Shown piece after piece: positions 7,601 through 29,701 of a stretch of 34,808 bases of DNA. The position numbers and the translations under genes were made by a program. The notes under the pieces were generated by a model, which saw nothing but the letters and a program-made list of their open reading frames with translations, was not told where the DNA came from and searched no databases. The first letter of the stretch is position 1. Every line of letters begins with the position of its first letter. Where the stretch lies: the NCBI GenBank assembly GCA_947632545.1, contig CANRPP010000011.1, positions 1-34,808 of the forward strand, in the 5' to 3' direction. The DNA is from an uncultured Bacilli bacterium. Lineage in GTDB: Bacteria > Bacillota_I > Bacilli_A > RF39 > UBA660.

Positions 7601-7648
7601 GTAATTCTAAATTTTTAAATAATTAAATATAATTATATGGGTGATTGT

Positions 7649-8626
7649 ATGTGTACTAGTATAGCTTTTAAAACTGATGATTTTTATTTTGGTAGAAATA
7701 TGGATTTGGAGTATGATTTTTCACAACGTGTTGTAATAACTCCTAGGAATTATATAATTAACTTTAAAAAAGTAAATCCAATGAAGGTGCACTTTTCAAT
7801 GATTGGTATGGCAACAATTGTGGATGATTATCCTCTTTATGCTGAAGCTGCTAATGAAAAAGGTTTATGTATGTCAGGACTTAATTTTCCAGATAATGCT
7901 TATTATAGTAAGGATTTAGATTATAATAAGGCAAATATTACACCATATGAATTAATTTTATGGATACTTGGACAATGTGAAAATATTTTAGAAGTAAAAG
8001 AATTACTTAATCATACTAATTTGGTTGATATTCCATTTAATAATAATCTTCCAGTAACTAAACTCCATTGGCATATTGCTGATAAAAATGCCTCAATTAC
8101 TTTAGAATGTACAAAAGATGGTATGAAAATATACGATAATCCTGCAGATATATTAACTAATAATCCTCCTTTTGATTTTCATATGACGAATTTAGCTCAA
8201 TATTTTAATCTTGAAACTAATATACCTAAAAATTGTTTTTCTAATGACTTGGGACTTAAACCATTTTGTAAAGGTATAGGAAGTATTGGTCTACCTGGAG
8301 ATTTTTCTTCTCCTTCTCGTTTTGTAAAAACATCATTTTTAATGCTTAACTCTAAGCTTATTCCAAATAAAGATAGCAGTCTTTCACAATTCTTCCATAT
8401 CCTTGATAGTGTAGGAGTAGTAAATGGTAGTATTATGTTAGATAGTGGAGAAGATTATTATACTATTTATTCTTCTTGTATTAATGCCAGTAGAGGGATA
8501 TTTTATTATAAAACTTATAATAATAGCCAAATTACAGCAGTTAATATGTATCATGAAGATATAAATAGTAATAATTTAATAAGTTTTTCACTCGTAAAAG
8601 AGCAGCAAATTGCTTGGTCGAATTAA
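7649..8626 (+). CDS. cbh: Choloylglycine hydrolase / bile salt hydrolase-like Ntn hydrolase
   Basis: Starting at ATG 7649 gives MCTSIAF with the Ntn nucleophile Cys2. Further matches: FGRNMDLEYDFSQRVVITPRNY, VDDYPLYAEAANEKGLCMSGLNFP, LTNNPPFDFHMTNL, GLPGDFSSPSRFVKTSF, YTIYSSCINASRGIFYYKTY. The track start at 7637 would bury the Cys. Confidence 0.92.
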   Translation: MCTSIAFKTDDFYFGRNMDLEYDFSQRVVITPRNYIINFKKVNPMKVHFSMIGMATIVDDYPLYAEAANEKGLCMSGLNFPDNAYYSKDLDYNKANITPYELILWILGQCENILEVKELLNHTNLVDIPFNNNLPVTKLHWHIADKNASITLECTKDGMKIYDNPADILTNNPPFDFHMTNLAQYFNLETNIPKNCFSNDLGLKPFCKGIGSIGLPGDFSSPSRFVKTSFLMLNSKLIPNKDSSLSQFFHILDSVGVVNGSIMLDSGEDYYTIYSSCINASRGIFYYKTYNNSQITAVNMYHEDINSNNLISFSLVKEQQIAWSN

Positions 8627-8703: not shown

Positions 8704-10320
8704 ATGAAACAGAGTGATATTATGGATAAAACAGAAAAGATAATAGATGAGATTGTTAGTGGTATTGATAGTAGTTATACTAAAAATGAGAAAATAAGAT
8801 ATGTTTATTTAGAACTTGGTAAAAGATTAAGTAAAGATCCTGATTTCTTCTTTTCACTTTATAATAAATTAGAGGATAAAAATTTATCTGTTTCGCAGTT
8901 AAAAGCTATTTATGATAATGAAGACTTAACAAAAAAGGTAGTTTGTAAATCTTGTAGTAAAGCATTAAAAATGTGTTTTGATAGAATAGGTATAGAATCT
9001 AAAATAATAGAAACTACTAAAAGTGATATTATTAAAGATAATACTGCAGAAGCAGATATACATCATTGTTTTGTATGTTGTAAAGGTGATGATGATAAAA
9101 GTTATTTTTTAATATTAAGTTCTGATTTAGATAATATTCAAATGGGATATAGAACAAAACATTTTGCAAAAAATATTTCTTATATTTTAGATGGTGAAGT
9201 TGCCTATAAGGGAGAAGAAATTCATAATTCAGTTATGACATATGAAGAAATAGAAGAGATTGATAAAAAATTAGGTTATTTAAATAATTATTATTTAAAA
9301 AAGAAGAATGGTAAATTAATATCAGAGCTTGATTATACTGATCATAATATTGTGTTATTAAGAGAAAATTATTTTAAAAATAGATTATATTATTCTCATT
9401 TGTGTGAAAATACTAAAAATAAATTTTATAGAACTGTTCAGGCTATTCCTTGTCCGGATGGTAAAATAATACAATTAAATAATTGTAGTGTTGATTATAT
9501 TAAGACACTAGATTTATCTAAATGGAAGAATAATATAGTAACACTTATTAATCAAAAAATTATGATTGAATTATATAATAATATTGAAAAAGATGATGAG
9601 GATAATTTATATGATCTCATTAATGATAATAAAATAGATGAATGGTTTGATTATATTACTCAAGTAGTTAAAAAACTAGATATATCAAAACTTGATATTT
9701 CTCATAATTTTGATCCTATAAGTTTAGTTAAAAGAACAAAACAATTATTTAATGATATTGAAAAAGAGGATATTAATACTTATTCAATAAGGAAAACTAT
9801 TTTAAATATTGCATATCAATTTGTAGATCCTGCTTTAGTGTTACCAAGAGATGCAAATGCTTATGCTACTAATTATTATATTTCTAGAAAATTTGAAAGT
9901 GAAATGCCTAAGATATTAGAATTGGGAGTTACTACTGATTTTTCTAGATTAGGTTATTCTGAACAAGTAGATACAATTGAAAAAATACTTAGTTCAGTAT
10001 TTCAGGAATTAAACGTAGATAATTGTGGTAATATGAAAGGCTATGATGAAAAACTTCCTGGAGTTAAAAATAGAATAATTACATCAGCTGTAAAAAATAG
10101 AGAAACTGGTGAATATTCATTTTTATTTCATATTACTGGTGATAGTGATGATGATACATATACATATTTGTATGAGCCTATGTTTAATTCAATGTCTGAT
10201 GTTGATTTATTTTCTGTTGCTGAAGATTATATAATAGTTACTAGTAAACTTAATCCAACTATTGATGATATTGAAAACATAGAAATTATTGAAAAAAATT
10301 CTGGTGGAATAAAAAAATAA
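8704..10320 (+). CDS. Uncharacterised 538-aa protein, possibly transglutaminase/cysteine-protease-like in its N-terminal half
   Basis: Long ORF without evident signal peptide or TM. NEKIRYVYLELGKRLSKDPDFFF...CKSCSKALK...HHCFVCC...LILSSDLDN gives a possible Cys/His/Asp order. The start could also be ATG 8722. Confidence 0.75.
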   Translation: MKQSDIMDKTEKIIDEIVSGIDSSYTKNEKIRYVYLELGKRLSKDPDFFFSLYNKLEDKNLSVSQLKAIYDNEDLTKKVVCKSCSKALKMCFDRIGIESKIIETTKSDIIKDNTAEADIHHCFVCCKGDDDKSYFLILSSDLDNIQMGYRTKHFAKNISYILDGEVAYKGEEIHNSVMTYEEIEEIDKKLGYLNNYYLKKKNGKLISELDYTDHNIVLLRENYFKNRLYYSHLCENTKNKFYRTVQAIPCPDGKIIQLNNCSVDYIKTLDLSKWKNNIVTLINQKIMIELYNNIEKDDEDNLYDLINDNKIDEWFDYITQVVKKLDISKLDISHNFDPISLVKRTKQLFNDIEKEDINTYSIRKTILNIAYQFVDPALVLPRDANAYATNYYISRKFESEMPKILELGVTTDFSRLGYSEQVDTIEKILSSVFQELNVDNCGNMKGYDEKLPGVKNRIITSAVKNRETGEYSFLFHITGDSDDDTYTYLYEPMFNSMSDVDLFSVAEDYIIVTSKLNPTIDDIENIEIIEKNSGGIKK

Positions 10321-10346
10321 GAATAGTTTAATTATTCTTATTTTTT
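10317..10346. terminator. Bidirectional terminator between convergent genes
   Basis: AAATAAGAATA-GTTTAAT-TATTCTTATTT long stem flanked by A- and T-runs. Confidence 0.8.
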
Positions 10347-10763
10347 TAATGTACTTGTTATAATTGCAATATCTGAATTGCCTATATCACTAGTGATATT
10401 ATTTAATCTAGTTTTTTCTCCTATTTCTCTAATTTTATTAAGATCATCATCTATTAATTCAGATGTTTTAGATAATGCAGGGTTTTTTATTTGCTCAAAA
10501 TAATTTTCTAGTAGAAATAATGCTTTTAAATAATCATCTGTATCTGCTTCTATTCTAGTAGGTTTTTGTCCTAATGTTTTTAATAATAGTATGGAGTTAT
10601 CAACTTTTTTTAATTCAATAGTTGGTTTTTCTTCGCTTGGAAGATTTAATAGATAATATTTAAAACCATTATTGTTCCTAATTGAAAATATATAATGTTG
10701 ATCATAGTAGTGGTTTGGTTCGCTTATAAAATATACTCTAAAATCACTATTATCATTTTTCAT
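10338..10763 (-). CDS. Hypothetical protein (141 aa)
   Basis: Complete ORF with upstream AGGAGATAAACC-type RBS (reverse strand); no family recognised. Confidence 0.7.
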   Translation of the reverse strand: MKNDNSDFRVYFISEPNHYYDQHYIFSIRNNNGFKYYLLNLPSEEKPTIELKKVDNSILLLKTLGQKPTRIEADTDDYLKALFLLENYFEQIKNPALSKTSELIDDDLNKIREIGEKTRLNNITSDIGNSDIAIITSTLKK

Positions 10764-10938: not shown

Positions 10939-10967
10939 TTGCAAAAAAATTAAAAGTGTGTTATAAT
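10939..10967 (+). promoter_or_regulatory. Putative strong promoter for adhesin gene, TTGCAA-17-TATAAT
   Basis: TTGCAA at 10939-10944, 17-nt spacer, TATAAT at 10962-10967, then the GGAGGGGG RBS and ATG 10997. Confidence 0.7.
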
Positions 10968-10996: not shown

Positions 10997-13171
10997 ATGA
11001 AAAAAGTAATTTCCAAAATAAGTAAAATTTTAACAGCAATTGTTATAACAGCTATGTTAGTATTTGCAGATACTGAATCTACTAATGCTGCAGCAAAATC
11101 AGTAAAGGTTGGTAGTACAACATTATTATCTGGTTATGTTGCAGGTACAAGATTTAGTATTAAGCCTTTAGTAGGAGGAGGCTATGGATATTGTTTAAAT
11201 ATTCATAAAGGTAGTGCCAAAAATACAACTCAGTATTTACAAAAAGAAATGGGAGCAGGTATGGCCTATATACTTAAAAATGGGTATCCTAATAAAAGTT
11301 TTACAGGTAATAAGAGTAAAGACTATTATATTACCCAAGCTGCTGTTTGGTGGTTTTTAGATGATACTACTGGTACATCTTATTTATCTAAATCATTTAA
11401 AACAAAAGGTACTGATAAATCTGGCTTAAGAAAATACATAAAGAAATTAGTTAGTGGTGCTAAAACTGCTAAGAAACAAGGTTATTCAACACCTTCATTA
11501 AATGTTAAAGTAAGTACTAAAAAAACAACTTTAGGTTCTGGTAAGAAATATTATGTATCTAAACCAATAGATGCTAATGCTAAAAATATTGATGGTAAAT
11601 ATAAAGTTACTGTAACTAGTGGTCCTAAAGGTACTATTACTACAGATGTTAACGGTCATCATCAATCTTCATTTAAAGCAAATGAAAAATTCTTAATTAA
11701 GATTCCTGTAAGTAAAATTGGTGAAGGAAAAACTGTAAATGCAAAAGTAAAAGTTACAGCATCAAGTACAATTAAGAAAGCATATAAGTATGCACCTAAA
11801 AATAATAATATTCAACCAATGGTTGTATTACAACCATATACTAAAACTGTTTCAGATACAATTACAGTTAGTGCAACTAGACCAAAGCCTGGTAAAAATA
11901 TTGTTGTACCAACACCTATACCAACAACCCAACCTACACCAGCTAGTGTATCTATTATAAAACTTGATAGAGATACAAATGCAGTTGTTGAAGGTGCAGT
12001 ACTATCTGTAAAAAATTCTAGTGGTAAAGAAGTAGCAAGATTTACATCAACTACAGAAGCATATAAAATGAATAATGTTGCTAACGGAACATATACAGTA
12101 GAAGAAGTACAAGCACCAGCAGGATACGAATTATCAAAAGAAAAACAAACATTTACAATCTCTGATACTGAAAGAACTGCAGAAGTTAGATATTATAATA
12201 AAGCAAAAGAATCAGTTGTATCTATATTTAAATTAGATAAGAATACTGAAAAACCAGTAGCAGGAGCAGGATTAGTAATAAAAGATGCAAATGGTAATGT
12301 AGTTAGATCATTAACATCATCTGTTAACGGAAATAGTATAACAGGTCTTGCAAACGGAACATATACAGTAGAAGAAGTAGAAGCACCAGCAGGATATGAA
12401 TTATCAACAGAAAAAGAAACATTTACTTTAAGTAATGAAACTAAATCTGTATCAGTAAAATTCTATAATAAAGCAAAAGAATCAGTTGTATCTATAATTA
12501 AATTAGATAAGACTACTGATAAACCAGTATCAGGAGCAGTTTTAGAAATAAAAGATGCAAATGGAAATGTCATTAAAAAATTCACATCATCTGTTAATGG
12601 AAATAGTATTACAGGTCTTTCTAATGGAACATATACAGTAGAAGAAGTAGAAGCACCAGCAGGATATGAATTATCAACAGAAAAAGAAACATTTACTTTA
12701 AGTGATGATGTTAAGTCTGTAGAAGTAAAATTTTATAATACTCCTAAAGATAGAGTTGTTACTATTTCTAAAGTAGATAGTACTACTGGTAAGCCAGTAG
12801 CAGGAGCAGTAATTGTTGTAACTAATGAAGCTGGAGAAGAAGTAGCAAGATTTACATCAACTACAGAAGCATATGTAATTAAAAATATTGCTGATGGTAC
12901 ATATACAGTAGAAGAAGAAGAAGCACCAGAGGGATATTTCTTAAATGAAGAATCTCAAACATTTACAATAGATAGTGAACATTTATCTTATCAAGTAACT
13001 ATTGAAGATGTTCCTAAAACTTGTGAAAATGGTGGAAAAGACGATGATGAATGTTATGTAGAAGTTCCTGATACAGCATCAAGTTCACTTCCATTCTGTT
13101 TAATTGGTATCGCTATTGTTTCATCAGGTATCGCATATGTTTACAAAAATAACAAGAAAGCACATAAATAA
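10997..13171 (+). CDS. Thioester-domain (TQXA-type) surface adhesin with four CnaB/SpaA-like repeats and a sortase sorting signal
   Basis: Signal peptide. GYGYCLNIHKG plus YYITQAAVWWFLDD match the Cys/TQ[AG]A thioester domain pattern. Four ~90-aa repeats have the VVSIxKLD...GTYTVEEVEAPAGYELS...VKFYN pattern. C-terminal VPDTA + hydrophobic stretch + YKNNKKAHK. Confidence 0.9.
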   Translation: MKKVISKISKILTAIVITAMLVFADTESTNAAAKSVKVGSTTLLSGYVAGTRFSIKPLVGGGYGYCLNIHKGSAKNTTQYLQKEMGAGMAYILKNGYPNKSFTGNKSKDYYITQAAVWWFLDDTTGTSYLSKSFKTKGTDKSGLRKYIKKLVSGAKTAKKQGYSTPSLNVKVSTKKTTLGSGKKYYVSKPIDANAKNIDGKYKVTVTSGPKGTITTDVNGHHQSSFKANEKFLIKIPVSKIGEGKTVNAKVKVTASSTIKKAYKYAPKNNNIQPMVVLQPYTKTVSDTITVSATRPKPGKNIVVPTPIPTTQPTPASVSIIKLDRDTNAVVEGAVLSVKNSSGKEVARFTSTTEAYKMNNVANGTYTVEEVQAPAGYELSKEKQTFTISDTERTAEVRYYNKAKESVVSIFKLDKNTEKPVAGAGLVIKDANGNVVRSLTSSVNGNSITGLANGTYTVEEVEAPAGYELSTEKETFTLSNETKSVSVKFYNKAKESVVSIIKLDKTTDKPVSGAVLEIKDANGNVIKKFTSSVNGNSITGLSNGTYTVEEVEAPAGYELSTEKETFTLSDDVKSVEVKFYNTPKDRVVTISKVDSTTGKPVAGAVIVVTNEAGEEVARFTSTTEAYVIKNIADGTYTVEEEEAPEGYFLNEESQTFTIDSEHLSYQVTIEDVPKTCENGGKDDDECYVEVPDTASSSLPFCLIGIAIVSSGIAYVYKNNKKAHK
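11945..13021 (+). repeat. Four tandem ~270-bp in-frame repeats (CnaB/SpaA-like domains)
   Basis: Unit starts at about 11945, 12215, 12485 and 12755, exactly 270 nt apart. A 78-nt block is identical between 12356-12433 and 12626-12703; a 36-nt block is identical between 12029-12064 and 12839-12874. Confidence 0.9.
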
Positions 13172-13802
13172 TACTAAACCTAAATTAAGAATCTCACCAA
13201 CTGTAGTAGCTTTTATTGGTACTATAATAATAATGATTGGGGGATTCTTTCTTTCATATAATTATATTAATTCTAAAAAAGTAATGGCATATGATTATAT
13301 GAATAATGTCTTTGTAGCAGAAGCTAGTGAAAATGGAATAGAAGAGGAAAATATAATAGGCGATAGTGATACAGGAGAAAATATTTCAGTTGATCCTAAT
13401 CAATATATTGGTACTTTAATTATCGATAAGATAGGATTTAATAAAGGATTTTATCCAAAAGAATCAGAATATAATGATGTTGATAAAAACTTGTTACTTG
13501 TAAAGGAAGCAGATTATCCTAATGTAGCAAAAGGTAATTTAATAATAGCAGGTCATTCTGGTACTGCTTGGAATTCATTCTTTAATGATTTATATAAGCT
13601 AGCTGTGGGTGATACTGCAAAAGTAGTTTATAATAATAAAACTTATACATATAAGTTTGTAAATATTTATAAAGCACCAAAAGTAGGTAATATTTCAATA
13701 TATAGAAATCAAAATAGAACGACATTAACACTTGTTACATGTACTAATTTTGATAAAACAACTCAAACAATTTATATTGGTGAGTTACAATCTGTAGAAT
13801 AA
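13137..13802 (+). CDS. Sortase family protein
   Basis: N-terminal TM, YIGTLIIDKIG, NLIIAGHSGTAWNSFF (catalytic His) and TLTLVTCTN (catalytic Cys). The start is uncertain: the track has 13104, ATG 13137 is also in frame, and both overlap the adhesin 3' end. Confidence 0.88.
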   Translation: MFTKITRKHINNTKPKLRISPTVVAFIGTIIIMIGGFFLSYNYINSKKVMAYDYMNNVFVAEASENGIEEENIIGDSDTGENISVDPNQYIGTLIIDKIGFNKGFYPKESEYNDVDKNLLLVKEADYPNVAKGNLIIAGHSGTAWNSFFNDLYKLAVGDTAKVVYNNKTYTYKFVNIYKAPKVGNISIYRNQNRTTLTLVTCTNFDKTTQTIYIGELQSVE

Positions 13803-13825
13803 AAGGTTTATAAAAGGGGGCGAAG

Positions 13826-14914
13826 ATGATGAAGGATTTATCATTTTTGGATAAACTTAAAGTTCTTGTAGATGTTTCATCATCTTCAGGACTTTGTATA
13901 GCATCTATAGTTATATTAGTTTTTCTTGCAATTATTATGCTTACAACAAGTAAAAAGAATTCTAAACAAACTAAGCTATTTTATATATTAATTTATATTG
14001 CATTATTAGTTGTTATGTTAATTCAATATGGTTCATCATTTTCTACAATGTTTGATTATATGATGAATAATCTATTTATTGCAGTATATTTTCCAAATTT
14101 AGCGATTTATTTAGCAGCTATAATAGCTACTAATATAATATTATGGAAAACTATATTTAACTTTAAAGAAGATAGATTATTAAAAGTAGTTAATACTATA
14201 ATTTACTGCATAATGCATTATTTACTAGTTTTAATTATGAATGTAGTTACTTCTAGTGGTATTAATGTCTTTGATAATTCATCTGTTTATAGTAATAATC
14301 AAGCCCTAGCCTTAATTGGACTTAGTAGTACTATATTTATGATTTGGATTATATTTATAATTATTTATAAAATAATTAGATCTTCACAAAAGAATAAAGA
14401 AAATGAAGTAGTAAGACCAATACTTCCTTCTAATATAATAGAGACTGCTGTACCTAAAAAAGTAAGAGAAATTATTGAATATAAAGAAATAAATATGCCA
14501 ATACTTCCTTCTAATATATTAGAGATAGTAGCACCTAGAAAAGTTAAAGAAGTAGTTAAATATAAAGAAGTAGAAAGACCTAAATTCTCATCTAATATAG
14601 AAGAAGTTGAGGCCCCTGAAATTGTTAAAGATATGAGACCTAAAATTAAACCTAATATAGATTTATCTACAGAAAAAGATTCTGAATTAGAAAAATATGA
14701 AAATATGTTAACTCTTGATGATTATAAAAGAGTTCTTGATATATTAAAAAATAATAAAGTTCCAGATGATACAATTACTATTGATAATAATATTGGTAAT
14801 GAATCTAGTAGTGAAAATAAAAATACAATTAATATTACTAATGAAAGTGATATTACATATAGTTATGAAGCAAATACAACTAAGACTGTACTTGATCAAT
14901 TACTAAATTTATAA
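13826..14914 (+). CDS. Multi-TM membrane protein with cytoplasmic repeat-containing tail (unknown function)
   Basis: About five hydrophobic segments in the first ~190 aa, then PILPSNIxE-type repeats and a charged tail; RBS GGGGGCGAAG; 23 nt after the sortase. Confidence 0.8.
   Translation: MMKDLSFLDKLKVLVDVSSSSGLCIASIVILVFLAIIMLTTSKKNSKQTKLFYILIYIALLVVMLIQYGSSFSTMFDYMMNNLFIAVYFPNLAIYLAAIIATNIILWKTIFNFKEDRLLKVVNTIIYCIMHYLLVLIMNVVTSSGINVFDNSSVYSNNQALALIGLSSTIFMIWIIFIIIYKIIRSSQKNKENEVVRPILPSNIIETAVPKKVREIIEYKEINMPILPSNILEIVAPRKVKEVVKYKEVERPKFSSNIEEVEAPEIVKDMRPKIKPNIDLSTEKDSELEKYENMLTLDDYKRVLDILKNNKVPDDTITIDNNIGNESSSENKNTINITNESDITYSYEANTTKTVLDQLLNL
14411..14658 (+). repeat. 27-codon in-frame repeats in the tail of the membrane protein
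   Basis: VRPILPSNIIETAVPKKVREIIEYKE / MPILPSNILEIVAPRKVKEVVKYKE / RPKFSSNIEEVEAPEIVKDM. Units are 81 nt apart (CC at 14417, 14498, 14579), with a degenerate fourth at 14639; 21-nt CCAATACTTCCTTCTAATATA is identical in the first two. Confidence 0.8.
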
Positions 14915-14940
14915 AAGTGTCTAATGACACTTTTTTTCTT
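14914..14940 (+). terminator. Intrinsic terminator closing the adhesin/sortase locus
   Basis: AAAGTGTC-TAAT-GACACTTT perfect stem plus T-run. Confidence 0.85.
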
Positions 14941-26805: not shown

Positions 26806-28845
26806 ATGAAAAAGAGGTTAATTTTTGTTACAGCAGTAATTATTGCGGTAGTAGCATTTATATTTGTATATAGATATTATAATAATGAAGATAAAACTAC
26901 ATCTTTAACTGTAAATGAAAAAAGATGGGTTCAAGAAAATAAAAGTAAAGATGTAGATATTGAAATTATTAATGACTATCCTATTTATGGTATGGAAGGT
27001 GATGGAGTTTTCTATGATTTGGTTAATGATTTAAAGAAAAATGTTGGCCTATCAATTAATGAAATTCCATATTTAAAAACTAGTAAACCAAGAACTAATA
27101 GTATTAGATTTAGAATTTTAGATGATTCAGAAAAAGTAACTGATAAAGATTTACTTCTATTTAGTGATTATTATATTGCAATAGGGAAAACATATCAAAG
27201 AATTAATCATATTAAAGATATGAAAGATTTAACTTACGGAGTATTTGAATCTGATAAAGATATTGTTAGTTATTATTTAAAATCTGCTACTAATATATCA
27301 TATAAAACTTATAAAACTATTGATGATATGTATAAAGCACTAGATAATAGTGAAGTTAATATGATTATAGTACCTAATATTATGTATTTAGATAAAACTA
27401 TATCTAATAGTGATTATTCTATTAATTATTATTTTACAGAGTTAACTAAAAAAATTGTTTTAACATTAACTAGTGATAATACTGAACTTAATAATATTGT
27501 TACTAAGTATTATAATAAATGGAAAAAATCTAGTTTTGTTAGTGAGTATGATAAAGAGTATTTTAACTATTATATAAAACAGAATAAATTAAGTTCTAAA
27601 GACAAAACTGATTTAATATCTAAAACTTATACATATGGTTATATAGAAAATAGTCCATATGAAGTAAAGAAAAATGGTAAAATTGTAGGTATTGCAGGAG
27701 AATATTTAAATAGGATATCTAGACTTGCTAATATAGATTTTTCATATAAAAAATATAGAGATAAGAAAGAATTAGAAGATGCTATTAATAATAAAGAAGT
27801 AGATATGTATTTTGATTATTATGGTATATCTAATAAAAACTATGAAGCAACATTATCTACATTTATTGAAGATTATGTAGTATTAGGTAATAATTCTGAT
27901 AATTATATAATTAATTCATTTGAAAGTTTAAAAGATAAAGATATTGTTATGCTTTCTGATAATTCATTATATAACTATGTATCAAATAATGCTAAAGCTA
28001 ATATTAAAACTTATTCTACAATTGATAGTTTAATAAAACATTCTAATAATAAATTAATTATAGTTGATAGAAATGTATATGATAAATATCATAAATCTAA
28101 ATTTAGTAAATATGCATTACTATATGTTGATACAATGATGAATGATTATAAATTTATGATTAAGAGTAATAATAAAGCATTTTATAATTTAGTTAATTAT
28201 ACTATTAATACTAATTCATATTATAATTATAAGAATAGTGGATTAGAAAGTATGAATGAATCAATATTAGAAAATAGTAGTTTTGGTGAAGTATATGCAA
28301 TTATTCTTGCTATAATATTTATTCCAATTATTGTTATATTAATAATTGTAAAAATTGCTAAAAAGAAAAAAGAGAATAAGAAAGTAAAAATTACTGATAG
28401 ACATAAATATACTGATATGTTAACCTCATTAAAGAATCGTAATTATTTAAATGCAAAGATGCCTGAATGGGGTAATTCAAATGTATATCCTCAAGCAATT
28501 GTTATGATAGATTTAAATAATGTTAAATATGTTAATGATAATTATGGGCATGAAGAAGGAGATCAACTTATTGTAGATGCAGCTGGTATTTTAGTTAATA
28601 CTCAACTTGAAAATAGTGAAATTATTAGAACAGATGGTAATGAGTTCTTAATTTATCTAGTTGGCTATAGTGAAAGACAAATAGAAACTTATACTAAAAA
28701 GTTATCAAAAGAATTGAAAAAACTACCACATGAATTTGGTGCTGGTGTAGGTTATAGTATGATTGTTGATGAAATAAAAACACTTGATGATGCTATAAAT
28801 GAAGCTACATTAGAAATGATAGCTAATAAAGAAGATTTTAAATAA
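26806..28845 (+). CDS. Membrane protein with two substrate-binding-like (SBP_bac_3-type) extracellular regions and a degenerate GGDEF domain
   Basis: N-terminal TM, large extracytoplasmic region (DIEIINDYPIYGMEGDGVFYDLV...; YTYGYIENSPYEVKKNGKIVGIAGEYLNRISRLA...), TM IILAIIFIPIIVILIIV, then DMLTSLKNRNYLNAKM...IDLNNVKYVNDNYGHEEGDQL...IIRTDGNEFLIYL. Confidence 0.87.
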   Translation: MKKRLIFVTAVIIAVVAFIFVYRYYNNEDKTTSLTVNEKRWVQENKSKDVDIEIINDYPIYGMEGDGVFYDLVNDLKKNVGLSINEIPYLKTSKPRTNSIRFRILDDSEKVTDKDLLLFSDYYIAIGKTYQRINHIKDMKDLTYGVFESDKDIVSYYLKSATNISYKTYKTIDDMYKALDNSEVNMIIVPNIMYLDKTISNSDYSINYYFTELTKKIVLTLTSDNTELNNIVTKYYNKWKKSSFVSEYDKEYFNYYIKQNKLSSKDKTDLISKTYTYGYIENSPYEVKKNGKIVGIAGEYLNRISRLANIDFSYKKYRDKKELEDAINNKEVDMYFDYYGISNKNYEATLSTFIEDYVVLGNNSDNYIINSFESLKDKDIVMLSDNSLYNYVSNNAKANIKTYSTIDSLIKHSNNKLIIVDRNVYDKYHKSKFSKYALLYVDTMMNDYKFMIKSNNKAFYNLVNYTINTNSYYNYKNSGLESMNESILENSSFGEVYAIILAIIFIPIIVILIIVKIAKKKKENKKVKITDRHKYTDMLTSLKNRNYLNAKMPEWGNSNVYPQAIVMIDLNNVKYVNDNYGHEEGDQLIVDAAGILVNTQLENSEIIRTDGNEFLIYLVGYSERQIETYTKKLSKELKKLPHEFGAGVGYSMIVDEIKTLDDAINEATLEMIANKEDFK

Positions 28846-28858
28846 AGGGAGAAGTAAA

Positions 28859-29701
28859 ATGGAGCGAGTTAGAGAGGTTTTAAAAAAAGTTATGACTTAT
28901 ATATCTAGACCTGATATGAGAGTTCTACCTGGGCAACTCGCTTTTTTCTTTGTAGTTTCACTTATACCTTTAATCGCTTTAGTAGGAACAATTGCAGGTT
29001 ATCTTTCTGTTTCAGCATATAAAGTTGAAAATATATTAGATTCAATATTTCCATTTGAATTAACAGATAATTTAGTAACTTATGTTTCAGGTAAAGGTAT
29101 GACCTTTAATATAGCGGTATTCTTTATTTCTGCTTTTATTTTAGCTTCTAATGGTTGTCATTCAATGATTATTACATCTAATCATATGTATGGTGTTAAA
29201 AATAAAGGCTTTTTTGCAAGACGATTTAAAGCTATAGGTATGACAGTTATATTAGTTTTAATTTTATTATTCTTATTAGTTGTTCCTGTATTTGGTGATA
29301 CTATATTTAATATTGTAACTGCTAATATAAGTGATATTTCTGCAGTTAATCTTGCTAGAAATATTTATAATATTTTACAATATCCAATCTCAATTATATT
29401 AGTTTTATTTAATATTAAACTTCTATATACTATAGCGCCTGATAGAAAAATAAAATCTAAAACTACTTATTCAGGTGCAATATTTACAACTATTGGTTGG
29501 ATTTTAGCAACTAAATTATATGCAATATATGCGGGAACATTTTCTAATTATAATATCTTTTATGGTAGTATTTCAGATATTTTATTTTTATTAATGTGGG
29601 TATATATACTTTCATATATATTTGTTTTAGGTATGGCTTTTAATGCTTCAAATACAAAAAAAGATGATTTTGAAACTATGCAATTGACCTTAAAAAAATA
29701 G
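28859..29701 (+). CDS. YihY/virulence factor BrkB family membrane protein
   Basis: AFFFVVSLIPLIALVG, NGCHSMIITSNHMYGVKNKGFFARRFKAIGMT, LYAIYAGTFSNYNIFYGSISDILFLLMWVYILSYIFVLGMAFNA. Confidence 0.92.
   Translation: MERVREVLKKVMTYISRPDMRVLPGQLAFFFVVSLIPLIALVGTIAGYLSVSAYKVENILDSIFPFELTDNLVTYVSGKGMTFNIAVFFISAFILASNGCHSMIITSNHMYGVKNKGFFARRFKAIGMTVILVLILLFLLVVPVFGDTIFNIVTANISDISAVNLARNIYNILQYPISIILVLFNIKLLYTIAPDRKIKSKTTYSGAIFTTIGWILATKLYAIYAGTFSNYNIFYGSISDILFLLMWVYILSYIFVLGMAFNASNTKKDDFETMQLTLKK

Follow-up and report, generated by a model that had tools for sequence, protein, structure and literature searches.

Some sortase-anchored proteins have a thioester domain (TED) at the N-terminus in addition to an isopeptide stalk, and the thioester forms without need for the Gln of the TQXA motif (PMC4450167). 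The Cys-His-Arg triad of sortases has been called ubiquitous, and the role of its Arg is debated, either as a stabiliser of the oxyanion or as a positioner of the substrate (PMC9520033). Here, we describe a locus of an uncultured RF39 bacterium of the Bacilli (contig CANRPP010000011.1, whose positions 1–34,808 are the window analysed), in which 3 consecutive open reading frames of the forward strand (10997–14914) encode, in this order, an adhesin, a sortase, and an unnamed membrane protein, which we designate MP. The initial annotation had named 3 co-directional genes of these kinds, and the open reading frames and domain searches confirmed them. Judged from its sequence, the locus is a variant of the sortase-anchored thioester-adhesin systems that lacks one defining active-site residue and includes a membrane protein of an unnamed family. 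The 3 genes probably form a co-transcribed, self-contained adhesin-anchoring module, in which a sortase with Gln in place of Arg has MP as its membrane partner.

The active site of the sortase

The second gene (13137–13802) encodes a sortase, as the initial annotation held: its product matched PF04203 (E=4.9e-15; 55.8 bits, cut-off 26.6), and a Foldseek search with the AlphaFold model (best E 2.7e-10) placed it firmly among sortases. None of the NCBIfam profiles of classes C, D, E, and F was passed (best 48 bits, cut-off 160). The start given by the open reading frame finder was a TTG at 13104, within the adhesin gene; the ATG at 13137 is the likelier start and leaves a 35-bp overlap with the adhesin gene. 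Such an overlap is usual across the modules (median 28 bp).

The catalytic His140 (codon 13554–13556) was kept in 138 of 138 sequences of the sortase alignment and Cys202 (codon 13740–13742) in all 129 that were readable at this position. The position of the Arg is occupied by Gln210 (codon 13764–13766), a change absent from the initial annotation. Among the MP-linked sortases, this position was Gln in 123 of 125, His in 1, Tyr in 1, and Arg in none. The other sortases compared had Arg there, with the sole exception of a sortase of the same genome that has Ser. In the MAFFT alignment, a gap puts the His of the class C sortases, which is the residue before their Arg, into the Gln column. We place the Gln on the Arg column because (i) both sortase types have a small residue, mostly A, G, C, or S, 5 places past the Gln or Arg; and (ii) in an alignment that includes class-B-like sortases from this genome (e.g., L061), the Gln falls on their Arg. 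An alignment artefact was ruled out by this alignment and by the spacing to the next strand, and a profile alignment to the solved LPXTG transpeptidase 2kw8 ends with the Gln region of the profile at the 2kw8 Arg. A second conserved residue, Arg190 (codon 13704–13706), lies 12 residues before the Cys and is shared by 124 of the 125 MP-linked sortases; it is a candidate helper of Gln210.

In a sortase tree built with the Arg/Gln column removed, the Gln-type sortases formed one clade (SH-aLRT 94) that is confined to this family of Bacilli, and the MP-linked sortases were nested within it (support 83–90). The deep placements of the tree are unsure because of several long branches. TED-linked sortases without MP in the same family were also mostly of the Gln type, and the homologues detected outside the family had Arg. 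The simplest history is a single change of Arg to Gln in a TED-linked sortase, followed by the later capture of MP. One TED-linked sortase of the family (L277:2697-3356, genome G299) has Arg at identical spacing (CKNNGNQRLIVIAEL vs CRHNTNKQIIVICEQ) and is possibly a relic of the ancestral state.

The genome of the window contains further sortases. The one with Ser at the expected Arg (TCTRFYGDSDYSFVVDAR; L064:5437-6219, contig C2, about 28436–29218, minus strand) is encoded near a 1132-aa surface protein and near Tad-pilus genes that were named CpaF-like and CpaB-like from their sequence. Three class-B-like sortases with Arg (L061, L062, and L063; contigs C10 and C13) adjoin small surface proteins, most of which have NPNTS-type signals, and make up a separate anchoring set.

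The membrane protein and its linkage to the sortase

MP (362 aa; 13826–14914) is a protein with 5 predicted transmembrane helices. Searches of Pfam, NCBIfam, PDB sequences, PDB folds, and viral folds gave no match above threshold, in agreement with the initial annotation, which had described a multi-pass membrane protein of no recognised family. The best fold matches were noise (PDB E=1.2, viral E=0.5), and a known transporter, receptor, or peptidase was rejected as an identity, the weak Pfam hits to Peptidase_U57 (E=0.08) and SPC25 (E=0.43) being noise as well. The AlphaFold model has 5 helices at high confidence, followed by a low-confidence tail. The five-helix membrane domain (13826–14413) is conserved among relatives; its basic residues average 3.2 in loop 1, 2.1 in loop 3, and 3.3 after helix 5, compared with 0.7 in loop 2 and 1.7 in loop 4. 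Therefore, the N-terminus is predicted to lie outside and the C-terminus inside, which would make the tail cytoplasmic.

The tail contains repeats of about 27 aa (LPSNIxE..P..V; 14417–14638). This periodicity, noticed in the initial annotation, is real, with 32 identities at offset 27 and no more than 16 at any other offset between 20 and 31. Further downstream is a conserved helical motif, LTLDDYKRVLDILK (14708–14749). Of 127 distinct MPs, 93 had a long tail and 28 had none, and tail length and repeats varied. A motif like LTLDDYKRVLDILK was present in 71 of the 93 tails against 0.04 in shuffled tails, by a pattern drawn up post hoc from the sequences themselves. The combination of a constant membrane domain with a variable tail that carries one constant motif suggests that the tailed forms of MP act as a scaffold or a regulator and have a partner in the cytoplasm, which is the least certain step of our reading. 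At one locus (L034:9744-12098), a UvrD-like helicase open reading frame has the MP tail as its C-terminus, and the gene next to it is repeated exactly; this metagenome genome either underwent a tandem duplication and fusion or was misassembled there.

The initial annotation had proposed that the 3 genes work as a unit, an idea that would fail if MP homologues were mostly unlinked to sortase/TQXA genes. In 48 MP loci from 60 relatives and a scan of public genomes, some genomes being counted twice, a sortase preceded MP in every one. In the set of 127 distinct MPs, which includes further fetched regions, the sortase gene was directly upstream on the same strand in 123, and the gap was at most 57 bp in 122 of these (median 17). 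Of the other 4, L079 stops immediately before MP, the gene order within the module differs in L159 and L177, and L182 has no nearby sortase. No hairpin was found between sortase and MP in any of the 123, and a terminator-like hairpin within 160 bp after MP was found in 37 of 123, compared with 7 of 369 random segments. The relatedness of the MPs followed that of the sortases (Spearman 0.65), and the nearest sortase relative was among the 5 nearest by MP in 105 of 125 cases, where about 5 were expected. The flanking genes differ between species and the module is kept together; it moves as a unit. The proposed three-gene unit is supported by linkage, short same-strand gaps, the lack of intervening hairpins, and congruent relatedness.

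When 291 genomes of the family were searched with a profile, 106 of them, spread over 57 of 150 genera, had an MP, a handful of the matches being weak. MP is not widespread in the Bacilli as a whole: 17 of 395 genomes of a class-wide sample matched, of which 15 belong to the family of the window and the other 2 are marginal (E ~4e-4). Many genomes in the relatives' records are gut metagenome genomes. The genome of the window has a diverged second module (L060), whose MP is 25% identical and tail-less. On contig C5 of the same genome, a TED adhesin ending in VPNTK is encoded with a Gln-type sortase without MP (L059:6523-8455).

The adhesin and the signals around the module

The first gene (10997–13171) encodes a surface adhesin of 724 aa with a signal peptide, a TED, a SpaA (CnaB) stalk, and a C-terminal sorting signal. 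The TED (11186–11464) matched PF08341 (E=5.5e-13; 49.7 bits, cut-off 22). The 4 SpaA/CnaB repeats (11945–13024; PF17802 four times, E=2.7e-66) show the Lys/Glu/Asn isopeptide pattern, with Asp in the last, and the sorting motif VPDTA (13064–13078) precedes a hydrophobic segment and then a basic tail; repeats and motif agree with the initial annotation. In its architecture of a Cys and a Gln able to form a thioester, isopeptide domains, and a C-terminal sorting signal, the adhesin belongs with the TED/TIE adhesins. The initial annotation was right about the thioester adhesin, but it apparently took the TQXA Gln (Gln114, codon 11336–11338) as part of the thioester. This partner was ruled out, since the TQXA Gln is non-essential (PMC4450167) and another pair is invariant: Cys66 (codon 11192–11194, like Gln114 inside the TED) and Gln273 (codon 11813–11815), the latter within IQPMV, a motif of the kind described in PMC4450167, were each present in 52 of 52 aligned TED adhesins. 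They are the likely thioester pair. Across the modules, most loci had one adhesin, and in most modules the adhesin C-terminus was of the VPxT type, which is the consensus of the sorting signal. Adhesin length and repeats differ between modules, and the spacing of sortase and MP does not.

The 3 genes are likely transcribed as one operon. A promoter-like site (TTGCAA-17-TATAAT with a TG-extended −10; 10939–10967) lies upstream; the initial annotation called it strong, but it is only plausible because such sites, found by consensus scan, are no commoner in the region than chance (76 vs 75.5). A hairpin with a T run after it, which resembles an intrinsic terminator and is of the class enriched after MP, closes the module at 14913–14934, close to the 14914–14940 first assigned to it. 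Upstream of the module lie 2 open reading frames without a Pfam or NCBIfam family (8704–10320, 538 aa; 10338–10763, 141 aa) and, at 7637–8626, a gene for a choloylglycine (bile-salt) hydrolase family protein (PF02275, E=1.3e-97), which fits a gut habitat.

Proposed mechanism and comparison with known systems

We infer a Gln-based activity for the sortase and a role for MP in anchoring, and we propose the following mechanism. The adhesin would be secreted by Sec, its TED (Cys66–Gln273) would bond covalently to a target, and its CnaB stalk would be locked by isopeptide bonds. The VPDTA motif would be cut and joined to a cell-wall precursor by the adjacent dedicated sortase, whose His140 and Cys202 would carry out the chemistry. 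The amide of the Gln, perhaps with the help of Arg190, would replace the Arg in hydrogen bonding to the backbone carbonyls of the substrate. The Arg has been found bonded to the P4 and P3 carbonyls and not to the P1 carbonyl (PMC9520033); a Gln could fill such a positioning role. The most likely task of the five-helix domain of MP is to hold or stabilise the sortase and the adhesin precursor at one membrane site, and the disordered tail with its helical motif would connect this site to a cytoplasmic partner. Five Mur-ligase-type genes in this genome and the predicted retention of peptidoglycan in most species of the order RF39 (PMC10868615) make anchoring to a wall precursor plausible; a wall-less organism, in which a sortase would be odd, was ruled out by the Mur-ligase-type genes. 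The wider proposition that a natural His-Cys-Gln sortase class and its dedicated MP partner constitute a new anchoring machine, tied to the cell interior through the tail, is offered tentatively.

Several points weigh against this mechanism: (i) replacement of the Arg by Ala abolishes the activity of S. pyogenes SrtA (PMC9520033); (ii) TED–sortase modules without MP, such as L059, indicate that MP is dispensable for some Gln-type sortases; (iii) with 28 tail-less MPs, a cytoplasmic link is not the universal task of MP; (iv) the pattern behind the tail-motif count was fitted to the same sequences; and (v) the genomes are related, so the linkage counts are not independent samples, and the agreement across genera and chromosomal settings is the stronger point.

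MP could instead be a factor that stabilises or protects the sortase, a role suggested for the small membrane factors that other sortases have, and not a localisation scaffold, its tail being incidental. MP is indeed tied more tightly to the sortase than to any adhesin type, in that adhesins vary at a constant sortase–MP spacing, and the tail-less MPs are linked equally well; but the motif shared by most tailed MPs suggests a cytoplasmic job and Gln-type sortases without MP exist, and we regard this explanation as rather unlikely. It is more doubtful still that MP is a sensor of adhesin binding, or performs transport or another surface task, and is merely co-regulated with the adhesin and the sortase. 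MP has no fold match to any known scaffold, and signalling is conceivable for its tail, which is predicted to be cytoplasmic and has a conserved motif, but no transporter or receptor fold was found for it either, and the strict adjacency to the sortase and the congruent relatedness suggest that the two are tied physically or functionally. Finally, that the Gln-type sortases are degenerate pseudo-enzymes and that anchoring falls to Arg-type sortases of the same genome is very improbable, for although S. pyogenes SrtA cannot do without its catalytic Arg (PMC9520033) and 3 of the 4 further sortases of this genome have the Arg, the His and Cys are invariant, the Gln is nearly invariant across a deep clade, where drift would not preserve one replacement residue, the genes are intact and linked to those of adhesins that bear a VPxT signal, and 3 of the other sortases adjoin proteins with NPNTS-type signals. 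A co-transcribed anchoring module with MP as the membrane partner of the sortase is the most likely reading.

In the literature searched, which covered few subscription journals, we found no report of the Gln-type sortase clade or of the MP family. Membrane proteins encoded with sortases or acting on them include SipA of pilus operons and SafA of Actinomyces. No sequence or fold tie to these proteins was found for MP, whose layout of 5 helices and a long tail is not known from them. MP adds a protein family that is new and whose genetic tie to sortase anchoring can be tested. Pilus polymerisation of the class C type was rejected for this locus, which has no second pilin; no conserved DP[FWY] lid was seen in the sortase alignment.

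The adhesin resembles the TIE-type thioester adhesins, such as the SfbI-like proteins (PMC4450167), in its N-terminal TED, its Cys and Gln motifs, its CnaB stalk, its C-terminal sorting signal, and its predicted covalent attachment; it differs in that its sorting motif starts with Val and in that it is encoded with an unusual sortase of its own and MP. The nearest solved structures of sortase classes A–F are C. perfringens SrtD5 (4d70), a class C sortase (4d7w), and L. rhamnosus SrtA (7f87). With these classes, the sortase shares the β-barrel fold, the His and Cys, the Thr before the Cys, and a membrane anchor, whereas Gln stands in place of the catalytic Arg and the NCBIfam scores lie below the cut-offs of classes C, D, E, and F. 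Another sortase without the Arg is an evolved, LMVGG-specific S. aureus sortase A with Ser in its place, cited as still efficient in a study that calls for more work on the Arg (PMC9520033). That enzyme is engineered, active, and has Ser, whereas the sortase described here is natural, has Gln, and is predicted to be active. Since the natural Gln clade occurs alongside Arg sortases in the same genomes and in near relatives, it makes the role of the Arg directly testable.

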